This document shows positions 20,499-27,649 of a stretch of 47,864 nucleotides of DNA, piece by piece. The notes beneath the pieces are model-generated. The model saw only the letters and a list, made by a program, of their open reading frames with translations, was not told where the DNA came from and made no database searches. Position 1 is the stretch's first letter; each line of letters starts with the position of its first letter. Both the position numbers and the translations under genes were made by a program. This DNA is from Anaerolineaceae bacterium (GTDB taxonomy: Bacteria > Chloroflexota > Anaerolineae > Anaerolineales > Anaerolineaceae). The stretch lies in the NCBI GenBank assembly GCA_019429225.1, contig JAHYJK010000009.1:1-47864 (forward strand). The letters run 5' to 3'.

Positions 20499-22379
20499 AT
20501 GACCGATAAACAACAAAAACCATATGGACTCTGGGAGAGTCCGATTACTGCATTGAGTGTTTCACAGGGCATCCGACTAAATGAAGTGCAATGGGATACC
20601 AATAGTGAATTTCTGGTCTGGCTGGAAGGTAGATCAGACAGAGGTGTTCTGGTGGCCAGTCAGGTTGGTGAAGCTGGCGTGGACCTGAATGGAGAAATGA
20701 GCTGTCGCGGTGGGGTTGGATATGGTGGCGGTGAATTTGTTGTGCAAAACAATCTGGTGATCTTTGCTGGCAAAGATGGACGATTATATCGTCGCGAATT
20801 AATACCAGAAAAAGCAAAAGCGATTACGCCGGCTTATGGTTCAGTCGCTGCCCCGAAAATTTCTCCGGATGGCAGACATGTTATCTATGTATTCTCGGAT
20901 GGCGAAAATGACGTATTAGGGGTCGTGGACACATCCGGGGTTCAATGGCCACAAAAGCTGGTACAGGGGGCTGATTTTTATATGCAACCTGTTTGGCATC
21001 CACATGGAAAAATGATTGCCTGGGTGGAATGGGATCACCCTAATATGCCCTGGGATGGAACCAGATTGAAGCTTGCTTCTTTGGAGGTCGATGAACTCCC
21101 CAGTATAAAAATCATCCAGACAGTGGCTGGAGATGATGAAACCATCATTTTTCAACCTGAATTCTCTCCAGATGGACAATGGCTCAGTTATATTACCAGC
21201 GCAGGAGAATGGGATGCACTGGTCTTGGTAAATTTGGACACGATGGAAAAGCAGGTCGTTTACCAACCACTTGATTTACATTTGATGGAACCAGCCTGGA
21301 TTCAGGGTGTCAGAACCTATGCCTGGAACACAGATAGCCAATCAATATTCTTATTACAAAATCAATTCGGTTCCAATAGTCTCTGGCGACTAAACGTATT
21401 TACCAAAGAAATTAAAAAAATTGATACCGGTATTTACACCTGGTTAAGACAAATAAGTGTTTCTTCAAAGGGTGAAATTGCTTTGATTGCTACCTGTGCC
21501 AGCGTACCGGCACGCATTATCGTTGGGGATGGCAATTCGTGGCGCGTGGTAGCCAGAAGTTCCGCAGAAAATATTTCACCTGTTTATTTATCCTCACCAC
21601 AGTCAATTTCATGGCAATCAAAAGATGGAGTGGAAGTTCATGGATTATATTACCCACCTTCCAATCCAAATTCCCAGGCAGAAGGTGTGCCACCAGCGAT
21701 CGTATATATTCATGGGGGACCGACATCACAGGTGACGGCTGGTTTCAGTGCAGCGACTGCTTTCTTCACCTCACGTGGATATGGCTGGCTGGATGTCAAT
21801 TATCGCGGGAGCACAGGTTATGGTCATTCCTATAAAAAAATGTTGAATGGTCGTTGGGGAGATGTGGATGTCGAGGATGCTGTGGGGGGAGCCAGGGCAT
21901 TGGTGGAGCAGGGTTTGGCGAATGAAAAACAACTGGTCATTCTGGGTGGCAGCGCAGGTGGTTACACGGTACTGAACAGTCTGATTCGTCATCCTGGTGT
22001 CTTCAAAGCCGGGGTGTGTAACTATGGTGTCTCAAATTTGTTCATGCTGGATATGGATACACATAAATTTGAAGCGCATTACACTGCTTCGATGATCGGG
22101 CAGCTTCCTGCAGCGGCTGAGAAATATCACGCCTGGTCACCGGTCTACCATGCGCATAACATCCGCGATGCACTGGCGGTATTTCAGGGGGCGGAAGATA
22201 AGGTCGTGCTACCAAATCAATCTGAGGTCATTGTTGATAAACTTCGCCAACAGGGTGTTCCCTATATATATCAGTTATATGAAGGAGAAGGGCACGGTTT
22301 CCGCAAAAATGAGACATTATTGGATTACTATCAACGAGTGGAGCGATTCTTGATAGAAAACGTGTTATTTGCCCCGTAA
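20499..22379 (+). CDS. S9-family serine peptidase (acylaminoacyl-peptidase type)
   Basis: This 626-residue cytoplasmic enzyme has an N-terminal beta-propeller with WD/PD40-like repeats (PKISPDGRHVIY, PEFSPDGQWLSY) up to about residue 370, then an alpha/beta-hydrolase domain. The catalytic triad is Ser485 in GGSAGG, Asp567 in GAEDKVV and His599 in GEGHGF. HGGPTSQ forms the oxyanion region. Such enzymes cut short peptides, often releasing N-acylated or other amino-terminal residues. It follows thioredoxin directly and ends at a strong terminator. Confidence 0.93.
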   Translation: MTDKQQKPYGLWESPITALSVSQGIRLNEVQWDTNSEFLVWLEGRSDRGVLVASQVGEAGVDLNGEMSCRGGVGYGGGEFVVQNNLVIFAGKDGRLYRRELIPEKAKAITPAYGSVAAPKISPDGRHVIYVFSDGENDVLGVVDTSGVQWPQKLVQGADFYMQPVWHPHGKMIAWVEWDHPNMPWDGTRLKLASLEVDELPSIKIIQTVAGDDETIIFQPEFSPDGQWLSYITSAGEWDALVLVNLDTMEKQVVYQPLDLHLMEPAWIQGVRTYAWNTDSQSIFLLQNQFGSNSLWRLNVFTKEIKKIDTGIYTWLRQISVSSKGEIALIATCASVPARIIVGDGNSWRVVARSSAENISPVYLSSPQSISWQSKDGVEVHGLYYPPSNPNSQAEGVPPAIVYIHGGPTSQVTAGFSAATAFFTSRGYGWLDVNYRGSTGYGHSYKKMLNGRWGDVDVEDAVGGARALVEQGLANEKQLVILGGSAGGYTVLNSLIRHPGVFKAGVCNYGVSNLFMLDMDTHKFEAHYTASMIGQLPAAAEKYHAWSPVYHAHNIRDALAVFQGAEDKVVLPNQSEVIVDKLRQQGVPYIYQLYEGEGHGFRKNETLLDYYQRVERFLIENVLFAP

Positions 22380-22461: not shown

Positions 22462-24219
22462 TTACTTCACCAGCGATTGTGCGATCTCTCTTTCCATTCC
22501 AAGCAGTGTATGCATTGTTTGCGGGAGAACATCCTCAAGGGAGACGGTTTGTTTTTCCTTTTCATGGCGAATTTTGAATTCTACCTGTCCCTGTGCAAGA
22601 CTCCTTTCGGCAACAGTAATGCGTAATGGGATCCCCAACAAATCGGCATCGTTGAACTTTACCCCGGGACTTTCCTTGCGATCATCAAACAGGACTTCTA
22701 TGCGTGCTCGTTGTAATTCCTGATACAGGTTTTCAGCAAACACCTGTGGTTGATCTGTATTTTTGGAAGGTAAAACGACCAGATGAACCTGGTATGGAGT
22801 GAGGGAATTGGGCCAGATCAGTCCATAATCATCGTTACCGTGCTCCGCCACACCTCCCAGGATGCGCTCAAGATCAAGCCATGCTGAACCAATAAAGATT
22901 GGTTTGAGTTCTCCCGATTCGTCCTGAAAGTTGCAACCCGTTTCCGAAGACATTAAGGTGTCCGGGGAAGTGATTTTACCCACTAAGAATCCGGATTGTT
23001 CTGTAAGAGGTTGATTGCACTGCGGACAGGCATCACCAGTTTTCACAGTTGTGATATCAGCAATTATCTTTGCCTGGAAATCACGACCGTAATTGACATA
23101 CTTGAAATGGTAATCGGTTTCATTCGCTCCCGCGACCAGATTGGGAGAATTCGGAATCAAATCATCCACAATGATCAGCGCATTTATTAAACCTACGGGA
23201 GAAGCAAAACCAGGAACTGCACCAATAGACTGAATTTCTAAATCCGAGGATGGACGTATGTACCATGCGTTAATCACTCTGGCAAGTTTGCTTTCATTCA
23301 AGTCCATATCTCCTCGCACAATAGCCATAACCACTTTTTCAGTTTTTTCACCGTTCTCTATTATGGTGGCCGTCATAAAAACTGCTTTGGCGGTTCGTGA
23401 GGCAGGAATATCCAGAAAATTCGCCAGGTCTTCAATGGTTTTCGTGTTTGGCGTGTGGACTTTTGCCAGGGATTCGAATGGTTCGGGTTCGGAAGGTTGT
23501 TTCACAGCCCTGCCAGATGCTTTGTTTACAAGATATCCACATGATTGACAATGAAGTAATTCGATATCTCCCTGGGGGTGCAGGAAAAAGAATTCAGATC
23601 CTGATTCTGGTTTGGGTTGTTGGTAATCAAATTCGACCGTTAAAACTGGCAATGTGCAGCGTTTAAATACATTCTCGAATGTCTGAATCAGTCGCTGATA
23701 TTGTTGGGTCGCGCTCGACAGATCTTTATCCAGGAAAAATGTTTCCAGCCTGGTCACGGATCTGGTAGACAACAACCCAGTTCGGTTCTGCCTTCCATTC
23801 AACATCCTGGGTTGAATCTGATACAGGAGTCTGGGCAATTGCCGATGTGAGCGGATAGTATGCTGGATAAGATCTGGCAGATAATGATGCGCTGTACTGG
23901 TTAAATACATTTGATGAGATGAAGAATCAGAAACATCCTGCATATCAACATCCAGAAAGGAATGGACTGATCTTTTTGCCAAAATTTCTGCAGACAATAA
24001 TGATGGAATATTCACTTCCTGTCCATTGAGGCGATTGAGTTCCTGCTGAACCATATTTTTTATTTTTTGAAGGCTGCGGGTCGCCAATGGATTGAGAATG
24101 AAAAAATTCGTAGCAACCTGGCGAACATATCCAGCACGTAATAAAAAATGATTTCCAGGCGTGATTGCATCAGCGGGAAGTTCACGCAGGGTTTGATTGA
24201 ACAGTAGTGACATGCGCAT
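22462..24219 (-). CDS. Prolyl-tRNA synthetase-like protein with degraded catalytic motifs and intact editing domain
   Basis: The 585-residue layout is that of bacterial-type ProRS. N-terminal class II core, then a YbaK-like editing insertion (about 255-400, with conserved Lys288 in RTAKAV), end of core, and an anticodon-binding domain (about 470-585, VLFDDRKESPGVKF). The catalytic sites are changed. THEE reads TAHH (109-112), motif 2 FRDE reads MLNG (139-142) with about seven extra residues, GSxSHEF reads ESGSEFFF, GHIFxLGTKYS reads GKITSPDTLMS, and motif 3 GIGxTR reads WLDLER (447-452). It probably cannot charge proline and may edit Ala-tRNAPro in trans. Two zinc-knuckle CxxC pairs (224/227, 408/411) resemble those of some Firmicute ProRS. 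It follows alaX by 9 bases. Confidence 0.88.
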   Translation of the reverse strand: MRMSLLFNQTLRELPADAITPGNHFLLRAGYVRQVATNFFILNPLATRSLQKIKNMVQQELNRLNGQEVNIPSLLSAEILAKRSVHSFLDVDMQDVSDSSSHQMYLTSTAHHYLPDLIQHTIRSHRQLPRLLYQIQPRMLNGRQNRTGLLSTRSVTRLETFFLDKDLSSATQQYQRLIQTFENVFKRCTLPVLTVEFDYQQPKPESGSEFFFLHPQGDIELLHCQSCGYLVNKASGRAVKQPSEPEPFESLAKVHTPNTKTIEDLANFLDIPASRTAKAVFMTATIIENGEKTEKVVMAIVRGDMDLNESKLARVINAWYIRPSSDLEIQSIGAVPGFASPVGLINALIIVDDLIPNSPNLVAGANETDYHFKYVNYGRDFQAKIIADITTVKTGDACPQCNQPLTEQSGFLVGKITSPDTLMSSETGCNFQDESGELKPIFIGSAWLDLERILGGVAEHGNDDYGLIWPNSLTPYQVHLVVLPSKNTDQPQVFAENLYQELQRARIEVLFDDRKESPGVKFNDADLLGIPLRITVAERSLAQGQVEFKIRHEKEKQTVSLEDVLPQTMHTLLGMEREIAQSLVK

Positions 24220-24228
24220 GATGGCGTC

Positions 24229-24951
24229 CTATTCGTCCAGCTTTAAGTAGATACGTTTGTTGATCTTCCCTTTGGACTTGTAATCAACAATATGAGCTTT
24301 ACCAATTTCTGAGGTAGAACGAACATGGGTACCGCCATCTGCCTGAAGGTCAAGCCCCACAAGTTCAATCGTGCGGATTTCGTTAATTCCCTCCGGTAAT
24401 AAGTTAATTTTAGTGCGGATCAAATCAGGGATCTGGAAAGCCTCCTCCCGGGGAAGAATCTGCACACGAATGGGATGATCTTTCTGAATTTCATTGTTAA
24501 CCGACCCTTCGATGACGTGAACCAGGTCTTTGCTGAGAGTCTCAAATTCAAAATCCATTCTCCCTTCCAATGGATCCATGTTTCCACCGGTCACCAGAGC
24601 ACCATAATCGCGAAATACCACGCCACAAAGTACATGCATGGCAGAGTGGGTGCGCATCAGTTGATAGCGGCGACCCCAATTAATTTTGGCACTCAGACTT
24701 GTTCCCGGGCCTGGGAGGTTAGCATCTGGATTCAAGGTATGCCAGACCTGGTTGCCTATTTTTTTTACCCGAATTACATCCATCGAATGACCATCCAGGA
24801 TGATCCATCCCATGTCGTGGGGTTGACCACCACCACCCGGATAAAAGGCAGTTTGATCCAGGCAGATAGCATTAGATTCTGGATCGATGGCTGATACGAC
24901 GGCTTCAAATTCCTGCAAATAACTATCTTTTTGGTAAAGTAATTTGGTCAT
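24229..24951 (-). CDS. AlaX-M-type alanyl-tRNA editing protein
   Basis: This trans-editing enzyme removes Ser or Gly from mischarged tRNAAla. Of 240 residues, the N-terminal glycine-rich part TAFYPGGGGQPHDMG matches the AlaRS C-terminal editing region, and the zinc motif HSAMH is intact. The second zinc half, usually CGGTHV, reads DGGTHV, so Asp replaces Cys; I recall such variants in other AlaX but cannot verify it. The ATG at 24951 has GAGAG upstream; a longer frame begins 13 codons earlier without family similarity. It is the first gene of an operon with the ProRS-like protein. Confidence 0.92.
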   Translation of the reverse strand: MTKLLYQKDSYLQEFEAVVSAIDPESNAICLDQTAFYPGGGGQPHDMGWIILDGHSMDVIRVKKIGNQVWHTLNPDANLPGPGTSLSAKINWGRRYQLMRTHSAMHVLCGVVFRDYGALVTGGNMDPLEGRMDFEFETLSKDLVHVIEGSVNNEIQKDHPIRVQILPREEAFQIPDLIRTKINLLPEGINEIRTIELVGLDLQADGGTHVRSTSEIGKAHIVDYKSKGKINKRIYLKLDE

Positions 24952-25049
24952 AGTTTCTCTCTGTTCAATGGAATGAATGTATTTTAGCATACCATAAGAT
25001 GCGATCTTCTTGAGTGATCAGTCTTATTTGAATGAGGCTTAAAAAATAA

Positions 25050-25096: not shown

Positions 25097-26104
25097 TTAT
25101 TTTTTCATCAATAAATCATTGGTGAATGCTTCACTGACATCAATCGGTTGCATGGTTTCGTATTCAACCAATAAATCAACCAATGCTTGCCATTGCTGCA
25201 GATCATGCCATCCAATTGTAATTTCAGCGGTGATCGGACTGCGCAGGTCTTTTAATTCGGAGTCCAACATAAAACGCATGTGGTCCCGATCTGTTTCCGG
25301 ACCCGCATATTTAAGTACAAATTCAACTGCTTCATTAGGATTCTTTTCTGCGTATAAAATCCCCTCAATCGCTGCATCCAGGAAACGAGCCAGTATGTCG
25401 GATTGAGTGGCTAATGTTTCCTCGCTGGTAACATAGGTCAAGCCAATGGAAGGAATGCCATAATCAGCTGCGTCCCAAAGATCAATTTCATACCCCCACT
25501 GCTGCATCATATAAGGCTCATTGGATTTGTAGACAGGATATACATCCACATTTCCTTCCGTCAATATGCGGGGATCGAATCCAACATTCACTAATTCGAT
25601 TTTTTTTAGGTCAGCTCCTGCTGCTTGGATTAAGGCAAATAAATCGGGTGGGGGTGTACCTTTAAATCCGACGATGTGATCTTCCCAATCCAGGGGAGAT
25701 GTGAATCCACTGCTCTTGAGTGCCGCAAAAGCTTGCTGCCCTGTTTGCCCGATTAATCCAATGGACACCAGAGGTAATCCTGGTTCTGATCGACGTTTGA
25801 GCAGGACAGCAGCATCCTGGGTGGTCACCTGAACTTTTCCCTGTGAAACCAATTGCAGATGCTGCCCTGAACCGGGTGAATGTTCTATGGAGACATCCAA
25901 ATTCCGTGCGGCAAAGAACCCTTTTTCCTGTGCGACATATACTCCGACGAATGGTAAATTTGCCTGAGGTTTATAACCTGCCATGAAAGTCATGCTATCG
26001 ATGGTTGGGGTCGTTGTGGGGCTGGCTGTAGGTAAAAGCGGAGTACAACCAGTCAGAAAGATGATGATAAGGATGATGAGCAATGATGATGAGCGCTGTA
26101 ACAT
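25097..26104 (-). CDS. NMT1/THI5-like substrate-binding lipoprotein of an ABC importer
   Basis: The 335-residue protein has a signal peptide ending in the lipobox LTGC (Cys20) and a Thr/Pro/Ser linker. The domain opens with FMAGYKPQANLPFVGVYVAQEKGFF, the NMT1/THI5 pattern seen in ThiY, RibY and SsuA/TauA. The ligand is therefore an aromatic small molecule or sulfonate; pyrimidine HMP or riboflavin are favoured for the NMT1 branch. It is last in the operon, 14 bases after the permease. The regulator at the head has a flavin/pyridoxine-type fold, which hints at a cofactor ligand but does not prove it. Confidence 0.9.
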   Translation of the reverse strand: MLQRSSSLLIILIIIFLTGCTPLLPTASPTTTPTIDSMTFMAGYKPQANLPFVGVYVAQEKGFFAARNLDVSIEHSPGSGQHLQLVSQGKVQVTTQDAAVLLKRRSEPGLPLVSIGLIGQTGQQAFAALKSSGFTSPLDWEDHIVGFKGTPPPDLFALIQAAGADLKKIELVNVGFDPRILTEGNVDVYPVYKSNEPYMMQQWGYEIDLWDAADYGIPSIGLTYVTSEETLATQSDILARFLDAAIEGILYAEKNPNEAVEFVLKYAGPETDRDHMRFMLDSELKDLRSPITAEITIGWHDLQQWQALVDLLVEYETMQPIDVSEAFTNDLLMKK

Positions 26105-26118
26105 AAACTCTCCTGAAA

Positions 26119-26889
26119 TTAAGAATTGGTTTGAGCTGGTTGCCAGAAAACAGCTTTTGCTTCAGACCAGGTGATGATGCGATAAATGATCATTCCCGCG
26201 GCTGCGAGAATGAAAATAGCTGCAAATAAAAAGGGTAAGTTTAAATTGGTGTAGGCCAGCCACATGGTGCGACCTAATCCTCCGGATGCGCCAGTCCATT
26301 CAGCGACAACGGCGCCGATTAACGAAAGCGGACCTGTGATTTTTAATGCGGTAAACAAATACGGGATAGCAGAAGGTGCGCGCAGATAACGGAAGATCTC
26401 CCATCGGCTGGCATTCCAGGACCTAAATAAATCGTAGAGAGCTGGATCCACGCGTTGCATACCACTGAGAACATTGATTAATACGGGAAAAAAGCTCATC
26501 AGAGCTGTAATAATAATCTTGGGTAAAACCCCAAAACCCAGCCAAAGCGTTAATAAAGGTGCAATGGCAACCATGGGGGTGGATTTGATTAAAATTGCCA
26601 GCGTCATGACACCATCTTCAATGCCAGGTAAGAGGGTTAAAATGGATGCCAGAAGGATCCCGGCAAGAACGCCGATCATTAGACCCGTCAGTGCCTCTCC
26701 CAATGTTAAGAAAGTTGCCTGGGCGAATGTATCCGGATGCAAAAAGAGTGTCTGAATCACACGGGATGGCGCGGGTAACAAATATACAGGAGTACCGGTT
26801 AAGAATACACCTAATTCCCAGGCGAGGAAAAAAATGATTACGATGCTCAGCGTGATAACAATGGTTTTTCTGGATTGTTTATGCTGCAT
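26119..26889 (-). CDS. ABC importer permease, SsuC/TauC/ThiX class
   Basis: This 256-residue protein has six helices and the EAA loop (about residues 170-195, FRSWNASRWEIFRYLRAPSAIPY) that docks to the ATPase. I set the start at the ATG at 26889 (MQHKQSRKTIV). It overlaps the end of the ATPase gene by 11 bases; the longer open frame would run deep into that gene with non-homologous residues. It forms the channel with the preceding ATPase and the following lipoprotein. Confidence 0.93.
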   Translation of the reverse strand: MQHKQSRKTIVITLSIVIIFFLAWELGVFLTGTPVYLLPAPSRVIQTLFLHPDTFAQATFLTLGEALTGLMIGVLAGILLASILTLLPGIEDGVMTLAILIKSTPMVAIAPLLTLWLGFGVLPKIIITALMSFFPVLINVLSGMQRVDPALYDLFRSWNASRWEIFRYLRAPSAIPYLFTALKITGPLSLIGAVVAEWTGASGGLGRTMWLAYTNLNLPFLFAAIFILAAAGMIIYRIITWSEAKAVFWQPAQTNS

Positions 26890-27649
26890 AATCGAAATTT
26901 CCGTTTGAATCCTGATGAAGTATGGATCGCAATTTGAATAAAAGTTCTTGAAAATTAGAATTATTTTCAAGTCGGGGGTGAGGAATTGCATTGGGTATAT
27001 CCGCCACAATATGACCTGGTTGTTCAGAAAAAACCAAAATTCGGTCAGATAATTTGATTGCTTCATGGATATTGTGGGTGATCCACAATACGGTAGGAGA
27101 AAAATCTTTCCAGAGTGAGAATAATTCTTCTGTAAGACGTTCGCGGGTCAATTCGTCCAATGCCGCGAATGGTTCATCCATCAGCCAAATAGGAGCATCT
27201 TGAAGTAGTAGACGTGCTAATGCCAGCCTTTGTTGCATACCGCCGGAGAGGGTGTTGGGGTGCTGGTCAGCAGCACCTTCAAGCCCCACACGTTTAAGCA
27301 CCTGTTCGACGCTTAATGGCTGTTGGCCTTTTCCCTTTTGAAAACGTTCTGCCAATCGAAGATTGCCTTCCACGGTTAACCAGGGTAAGAGAGCCGGGCT
27401 TTGTGCCATCCAGGCGACCTGTCCATTTTCTATAGCCTGTCTTGGATGAAAATTGCCAATTTTGATTTCACCTTGCGAAGGAACAATCAGGTTGGCAATC
27501 AGCCGAATTAAAGTTGATTTTCCACACCCGCTAGGACCTATCAGGGCTACAAATTGTTTTTGAGATATATCCAGATAAATATCTTCCAGTGCATGTGTGG
27601 TTTTACCGTTGAAATATTGATGAGAAAGCGATTGAATTGAAATCTGCAT
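26879..27649 (-). CDS. ABC importer ATP-binding protein, SsuB/TauB/ThiZ class
   Basis: In 256 residues it shows Walker A GPSGCGKSTL, Q-loop WMAQSPALLPWLTV, signature LSGGMQQRLALARLL, Walker B IWLMDEPFAALDELTR and H-loop WITHNIHEA. DEPFAALD and the ALLPW segment are typical of nitrate/sulfonate/taurine/thiamine-precursor importers. It begins 3 bases after the regulator's stop codon and overlaps the permease, so expression is tightly coupled. Confidence 0.95.
   Translation of the reverse strand: MQISIQSLSHQYFNGKTTHALEDIYLDISQKQFVALIGPSGCGKSTLIRLIANLIVPSQGEIKIGNFHPRQAIENGQVAWMAQSPALLPWLTVEGNLRLAERFQKGKGQQPLSVEQVLKRVGLEGAADQHPNTLSGGMQQRLALARLLLQDAPIWLMDEPFAALDELTRERLTEELFSLWKDFSPTVLWITHNIHEAIKLSDRILVFSEQPGHIVADIPNAIPHPRLENNSNFQELLFKLRSILHQDSNGNFDYAA

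Follow-up and report, generated by a model that had tools for sequence, protein, structure and literature searches.

The window analysed here is a 47,864-nucleotide stretch of contig JAHYJK010000009.1, from an Anaerolineaceae genome assembly of 4.2 Mb in 368 contigs that is 97.9% complete. It carries on its reverse strand a gene for a protein resembling bacterial prolyl-tRNA synthetase (ProRS) and, upstream of it, an AlaX-like gene. The ProRS-like protein is made up of a class II catalytic core in two parts, a YbaK-like editing domain (INS) and an anticodon-binding domain (ABD). Relatives were scored for 19 catalytic, 14 INS and 14 ABD positions, with a live relative as reference; the rows of the alignment that we call dead have 0–7 of the 19 catalytic residues and 13–14 of the 14 residues in each of INS and ABD. 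Positions termed live-fixed are those conserved in at least 95% of 43 live rows (126 in the core, 45 in INS and 25 in the ABD). Papers are cited by PMC number.

22462..24219 (-): ProRS-like gene, the proposed editing-only ProRS, 585 aa, with profile, PDB and model matches
23515..24219 (-): N-terminal portion of the class II catalytic core (residues 1-235), without the THEE loop, motif 2 or SHEF segment
23539..23550 (-): first CxxC (C224, C227), flanking INS; present in 100% and 94% of dead rows
23044..23502 (-): INS (YbaK-like) editing domain, residues 240-392, retained; PF04073 67.9 bits, live-fixed positions 40/45
23386..23388 (-): codon of K278 in INS; present in 33/33 dead rows
23107..23109 (-): codon of H371, which belongs to the INS segment GAN...H; present in 33/33 dead rows
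23017..23028 (-): second CxxC (C398, C401), flanking INS; present in 100% of dead rows
22831..23043 (-): C-terminal portion of the class II core (residues 393-463), without GTxYS or the motif 3 glycines
22462..22830 (-): ABD, residues 464-585, retained; PF03129 74 bits, live-fixed positions 24/25
24229..24990 (-): AlaX-like gene (AlaX-M type), 253 aa, 9 bp upstream of the ProRS-like gene; NF040865 278 bits

The window protein has the complete layout of a bacterial ProRS, as a preliminary description of this DNA had stated. It scored 352 bits against TIGR00409, above the cut-off of 306.7, and 424 bits against NF006625, under the cut-off of 558; PF04073 (cut-off 25.5) matched residues 256–376 and PF03129 matched residues 481–565. 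Its best PDB relative was 5znj (residues 1–565, 283 bits). An AlphaFold2 model, calculated from an alignment of 38 window and locus sequences, had a mean pLDDT of 91.7; its TM-score to E. faecalis ProRS 2j3l, normalised by query length, was 0.88. Since that alignment included live relatives, the modelled fold is biased towards that of live ProRS; the model indicates a plausible fold and makes no statement on activity.

The window protein has 7 of the 19 diagnostic catalytic residues and lacks a recognizable class II active site. Alignment to PDB ProRS sequences and relatives revealed that THEE is replaced by TAHH, motif 2 (FRDE...LxRxREF) by MLNG...LSTRSV, SHEF by SEFF, the GTxYS segment by DTLMS, and motif 3 (GIGxxR) by LDLER. 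These are the replacements listed in the preliminary description, with the qualification that the motif 3 Arg remains. Two relatives that are 83–84% identical across all 585 residues show the same catalytic losses, and dN/dS among the three proteins is 0.10–0.26 by domain. The open frame, the shared losses and these ratios together indicate that the losses are due neither to chance nor to sequencing error. The alignments confirm that the aminoacylation site, as read from the encoded protein, has been destroyed.

The pattern of conservation differs sharply between domains. In the 33 dead rows, the mean retention of live-fixed positions was 0.35 for the core, 0.88 for INS and 0.96 for the ABD; the live set excluded 7 outgroup and 5 part-decayed rows, and five loci that are split or cut by contig ends (L056, L057, L062, L068, L074) were left out of the counts. 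All 33 dead rows contain I262, L265, K278, H371 and the GAN triplet of INS, as well as D512, R514, G519, K521, A525, D526, L527, G529, P531 and R533 of the ABD. The window protein itself retains K278, the GAxxGxxxP loop and GAN...H in INS, plus DDRKESPGVKFNDADLLGIPLR in the ABD. We presume that I262, L265 and H371 correspond to the E. coli ProRS pocket residues I263, L266 and H369. A conserved INS Lys had been claimed for this protein, and a Lys is indeed retained; the invariant Lys of the family is K278, and K260 (in PNTKTI) varies even among live relatives. K278 is taken as the putative equivalent of the editing residue Lys279 of E. coli ProRS, whose K279A variant is termed editing-defective (PMC3973320). 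With both CxxC pairs that bracket INS retained, the hinge of this domain may form a zinc knuckle, the two pairs being its likely halves. Judged by sequence only, the window protein thus has the make-up of a ThrRS-ed-type factor, in which editing and anticodon domains are retained and the charging site is lost.

We also compared rates of evolution across the domains. In eight dead pairs, core dN/dS was 0.15–0.26, as against 0.01–0.10 in the eight live pairs that gave a value, such that the core is the slowest-evolving part in live pairs and the fastest in dead pairs. INS (0.06–0.21) and ABD (0.07–0.15) in dead pairs resembled those of live pairs. These ratios are Nei-Gojobori type counts, and several pairs are saturated at synonymous sites. 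The ratios indicate that purifying selection is still acting on dead ProRS genes.

A cell with such a protein would need another ProRS for charging, perhaps one of the archaeal type, as the preliminary description had pointed out; it had named the lack of any other ProRS as a finding that would refute its reading. A search of the genome did not refute it: a different contig encodes an archaeal-type ProRS (477 aa; TIGR00408 579 bits, cut-off 437) with recognizable motifs. No PF04073 editing domain was found in it, or on its contig, by a PF04073 search, so the genome encodes a presumed charging synthetase that lacks an editing domain. No second long, bacterial-type ProRS was detected in the source genome with the P0001 query (E<=1e-20), the dead copy being its only one.

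To assess the spread of dead copies, samples of the family, the order and the phylum (Chloroflexota) were surveyed. The P0001 query matched 68 of 101 family genomes (E<=1e-20), in which 20 copies are dead (1–7/19 catalytic residues), 41 live, 2 part-decayed (14 and 16/19) and 5 cut or split. Full-length TIGR00409 scores fell into a high group (at least 504 bits) and a low group (at most 352 bits) in the order sample of 141 genomes, and likewise in the phylum sample of 151 genomes (at least 494 bits except for one of 410; at most 352 bits). All 12 low scorers retrieved from these two samples proved to be dead (0–6/19); their sources are four further families of the order, one further family of the class, and a different class. 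These 12, the 20 family copies and L109 (HGW-Chloroflexi-3), the gene DNA of which is identical to that of G070, make up the 33 dead rows. L109 came from a scan of genome contigs with a single protein, which reached only close relatives (33 loci); five of these loci were used, L109 as a dead relative and L110, L115, L128 and L132 as outgroups. As a separate observation from the phylum sample, five genomes of one family (G257, G266, G297, G319, G326) each encode two high-scoring, full-length bacterial-type ProRS genes.

Dead copies were associated with the second ProRS. A TIGR00408 ProRS was found in 29 of the 33 dead genomes, in one of them (G006) in two pieces; the four genomes without a match are 61–82% complete. 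In three family genomes that have no TIGR00408 copy of their own (G026, G052, G056), the long ProRS is live. The phylum sample contained 60 genomes with the long type alone, 61 with the archaeal type alone, 28 with both and 2 with neither; copies dead by score occurred in 5 of the 28 both-type genomes versus none of the 60 long-type-only genomes (Fisher p = 0.0025). A further dead copy, in G274, was missed by the cut of E<=1e-40, and there too the archaeal type is present. The predicted combination of a dead synthetase site with retained INS and ABD recurs across the 33 dead rows and goes with the presence of a second ProRS in the genome. A redundant charging site does not have to decay, since both ProRS types are kept by 45 of the 48 non-dead family genomes. 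In five of the 28 both-type genomes of the phylum sample, from three families, archaeal-type and bacterial-type proS genes are adjacent on one strand and 119–875 bp apart (G173:C19, G246:C94, G331:C3, G338:C1, G364:C2). The long copies in these pairs are live by score (574–623 bits), except for that of G173, which is part-decayed (15/19). In such pairs, a ProRS able to edit and one that lacks editing likely share a transcription unit.

We used a tree of the INS and ABD columns, from which L062, L068 and L074 were omitted, to determine how often charging was lost. The dead label required six changes on this tree, at least three of them forced by strong branches. A single origin of the dead copies was disfavoured by the AU test (p = 0.034), a result that is only moderately strong as it comes from a quick tree. 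The genus of the window provides the clearest case: five dead rows and four live ones group with strong support in a single clade, AlaX lies just upstream in all eight genus genomes, and in six of these eight the downstream neighbour is one also found in live relatives from other genera; in this genus, dead and live genes are consequently orthologues at one locus. The tree indicates that charging was lost more than once. Intermediates between live and dead ProRS also exist. In the family of G333, where the gene was found in 22 of 41 genomes (E<=1e-30), catalytic counts of 19, 18, 17, 16, 14, 7, 5, 2 and 1 occur with 18–19 of 19 key INS/ABD residues, and all eight genomes of G333's own genus are dead in this search. 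The homologue in G333 itself lies at G333:C1:2464694-2466031 on the reverse strand. A His to Arg change in AHEF, common to most of this family, may represent lineage drift. We consider it probable that in Chloroflexota a full-length bacterial ProRS was converted, several times independently, to an enzyme dedicated to trans-editing wherever charging passed to an archaeal-type ProRS; with live, half-decayed and fully dead forms present side by side within one genus and within one family, the route would be traceable step by step.

The requirements for recognition of tRNAPro bear on what such a protein could do. Two tRNAPro genes were found in the source genome, among 30 of 43 scanned tRNA loci, with anticodons TGG and CGG, and both have C1:G72, A73 and G35/G36 anticodons. 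The INS of E. coli ProRS has no intrinsic recognition of tRNAPro and relies on the ABD to read G35 and G36 (PMC3973320; review PMC11295145), and changes in the acceptor stem have no effect on its editing; this stem is instead the element read by ProXp-ala, and YbaK lacks specificity for any tRNA (PMC3973320). As INS derives its specificity from the ABD, a protein retained solely to hydrolyse Ala-tRNAPro must retain INS, the ABD and some scaffold, and INS and ABD are the very domains that survive in the dead copies. The source genome also encodes a YbaK-like protein and a ProXp-x-like protein (2cx5, 127 bits). The substrates of ProXp-x are Abu-tRNA and, to a lower degree, Ala-tRNAPro (PMC11295145), so some Ala-tRNAPro editing would be redundant in this genome. 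A second ProXp-x-like gene, at L108 (1465–1710), is a contig-end fragment nearly the same as part of the L105 gene.

No ProXp-ala match was found in the source genome with L174 (itself 100.8 bits to 5vxb) as query at a cut of E<=1e-12. Matches were present in 25 of the 101 family genomes, including 4 of the 20 dead ones, one match (G035) being weak. The long ProRS is absent (E<=1e-20) from 33 of the 101, and 21 of these also have no ProXp-ala match (E<=1e-12). ProXp-ala was rejected as a strict replacement for the missing long ProRS: it occurs in 12 of 33 genomes without and 13 of 68 with a long ProRS, which is the expected direction (p = 0.085). In the seven genomes of genus g15 (G015, G047, G063, G074, G083, G091, G097; 92–99% complete), searches detected neither a PF04073 protein nor a long ProRS. 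Given these seven genomes, Ala-tRNAPro editing is evidently not essential in the group and looks dispensable there.

We favor, at a probability of about four in five, the reading that the window protein is an editing-only ProRS ('ProRS-ed') which removes Ala-tRNAPro in trans on behalf of the archaeal-type ProRS. The archaeal-type enzyme, with its intact motifs, would charge tRNAPro, and the long ProRS, having lost its motif 2, THEE and motif 3 residues, would be unable to make the aminoacyl-adenylate. It would bind tRNAPro through the intact ABD (bases G35/G36) and hydrolyse misattached alanine in the intact INS pocket, the catalytic core being kept as a scaffold that spaces INS and ABD correctly. 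In Chloroflexota, this state would have evolved several times, after a second ProRS had rendered the charging site redundant.

Other readings are less likely. YbaK acts via a ternary complex with ProRS (PMC3973320, PMC11295145), and both YbaK-like and ProXp-x-like proteins are encoded in the genome, so that the dead ProRS could be a non-catalytic tRNAPro-binding partner, one that delivers tRNAPro to YbaK/ProXp-x or stabilises the archaeal-type ProRS, with INS serving a structural role only. We regard this as unlikely, since a role limited to binding gives no reason for all 33 dead rows to contain the proposed active-site residues of INS (K278, H371, the GAN loop, I262, L265). The same architecture and mechanism might instead serve a different mischarged tRNAPro, carrying Cys, aminobutyrate or another analogue; amino acid specificity differs among INS-family members (PMC11295145) and is not safely readable from sequence. 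However, this domain and the Ala-specific INS of live ProRS are orthologues, its pocket positions are unchanged, and the YbaK-like and ProXp-x-like proteins already cover the remaining substrates, making a substrate other than Ala quite improbable.

There is very little chance that the window protein still functions as a ProRS or as a synthetase of altered chemistry. It does exceed the TIGR00409 cut-off and keep the motif 3 Arg, but the motif 2 Arg/Glu, THEE, SHEF, GTxYS and the motif 3 glycines are gone, relatives lose different subsets of residues, down to 0/19, and core dN/dS is about five-fold above that of live pairs. It is equally hard to credit that these genes are functionless pseudogenes in decay: relaxed dN/dS in the core and the loss of the gene from some genomes would fit such a state, but dN/dS lies below 0.27 in every domain, nearly all dead copies have full-length open frames, and INS and ABD are near-invariant across families and one other class.

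Both evolution and context lend good support to the assignment of the window protein as a putative trans-editing factor of the INS type, derived from a whole synthetase. The protein shares layout, INS and ABD sequence and predicted fold with bacterial ProRS that carry INS (E. coli, E. faecalis 2j3l), but is without their aminoacylation residues, charging presumably being left to a second ProRS. Archaeal ThrRS-ed of Crenarchaeota likewise offers editing and anticodon domains in trans to an editing-less synthetase (PMC11295145, PMC7373986); there the amino acid and editing fold are different, whereas the window protein keeps the whole catalytic core as a scaffold, and its presumed charging partner is no split copy but a ProRS of the other type. 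ProXp-ala, YbaK and ProXp-x belong to the same editing domain superfamily and perform the same kind of task in trans, but are single-domain proteins, whereas the window protein carries three domains, including the ABD, on one chain. Anabaena ThrRS T1 without zinc is a complete synthetase whose sole role is to edit in trans for a second one (PMC4787780); there the switch, made by zinc, is reversible, whereas in the window protein the loss is genetic and permanent. Searches of the open-licence literature, including excerpts of PMC11295145, PMC7373986, PMC4787780, PMC3973320 and PMC6344894, turned up no account of a ProRS that only edits. If correct, the assignment would add a new architecture for proline proofreading, in which a whole synthetase is retained for editing alone. 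It would offer a natural dissection of the parts of ProRS needed for editing, and bears on the question, raised in PMC3973320, of how anticodon recognition reaches the distant editing site. Genes annotated as proline--tRNA ligase through TIGR00409 may not charge tRNA, and the repeated, staged loss opens the origin of editing-only factors such as ThrRS-ed to direct study.

The AlaX-like gene scored 278 bits against NF040865, below the cut-off of 300, and had PDB matches to Pyrococcus/archaeal AlaX and to AlaRS; an inner ATG at 24951 coincides with the end given for it in the preliminary description. Its protein contains HSAMH, and the Cys of CGGTH is Asp in all eight genus copies; we take HxxxH and CxxxH to be the metal ligands of AlaX-M. 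Coupling of AlaX to the ProRS-like gene had also been proposed. The adjacency held in 8 of 8 genus genomes, but was seen at none of 60 other loci (flanks of about 1.5–3 kb, shorter at contig ends), and four of the eight genus ProRS are live. As AlaX flanks live ProRS in the same genus, it does not define the dead form, and it was rejected as the defining partner of dead ProRS. The pairing is older than the loss of charging. The substrate of AlaX is tRNAAla, not tRNAPro (PMC7373986). Where the ProRS of the genus is dead (four genomes), AlaX and ProRS make up a two-gene candidate proofreading cassette, their joint action being putative. Elsewhere in the window, a peptidase-like gene (by eye) at 20499–22379 adjoins ProRS in 13 loci, and a substrate-binding protein, a permease and an ATPase at 25097–27649 look, by eye, like one ABC importer.
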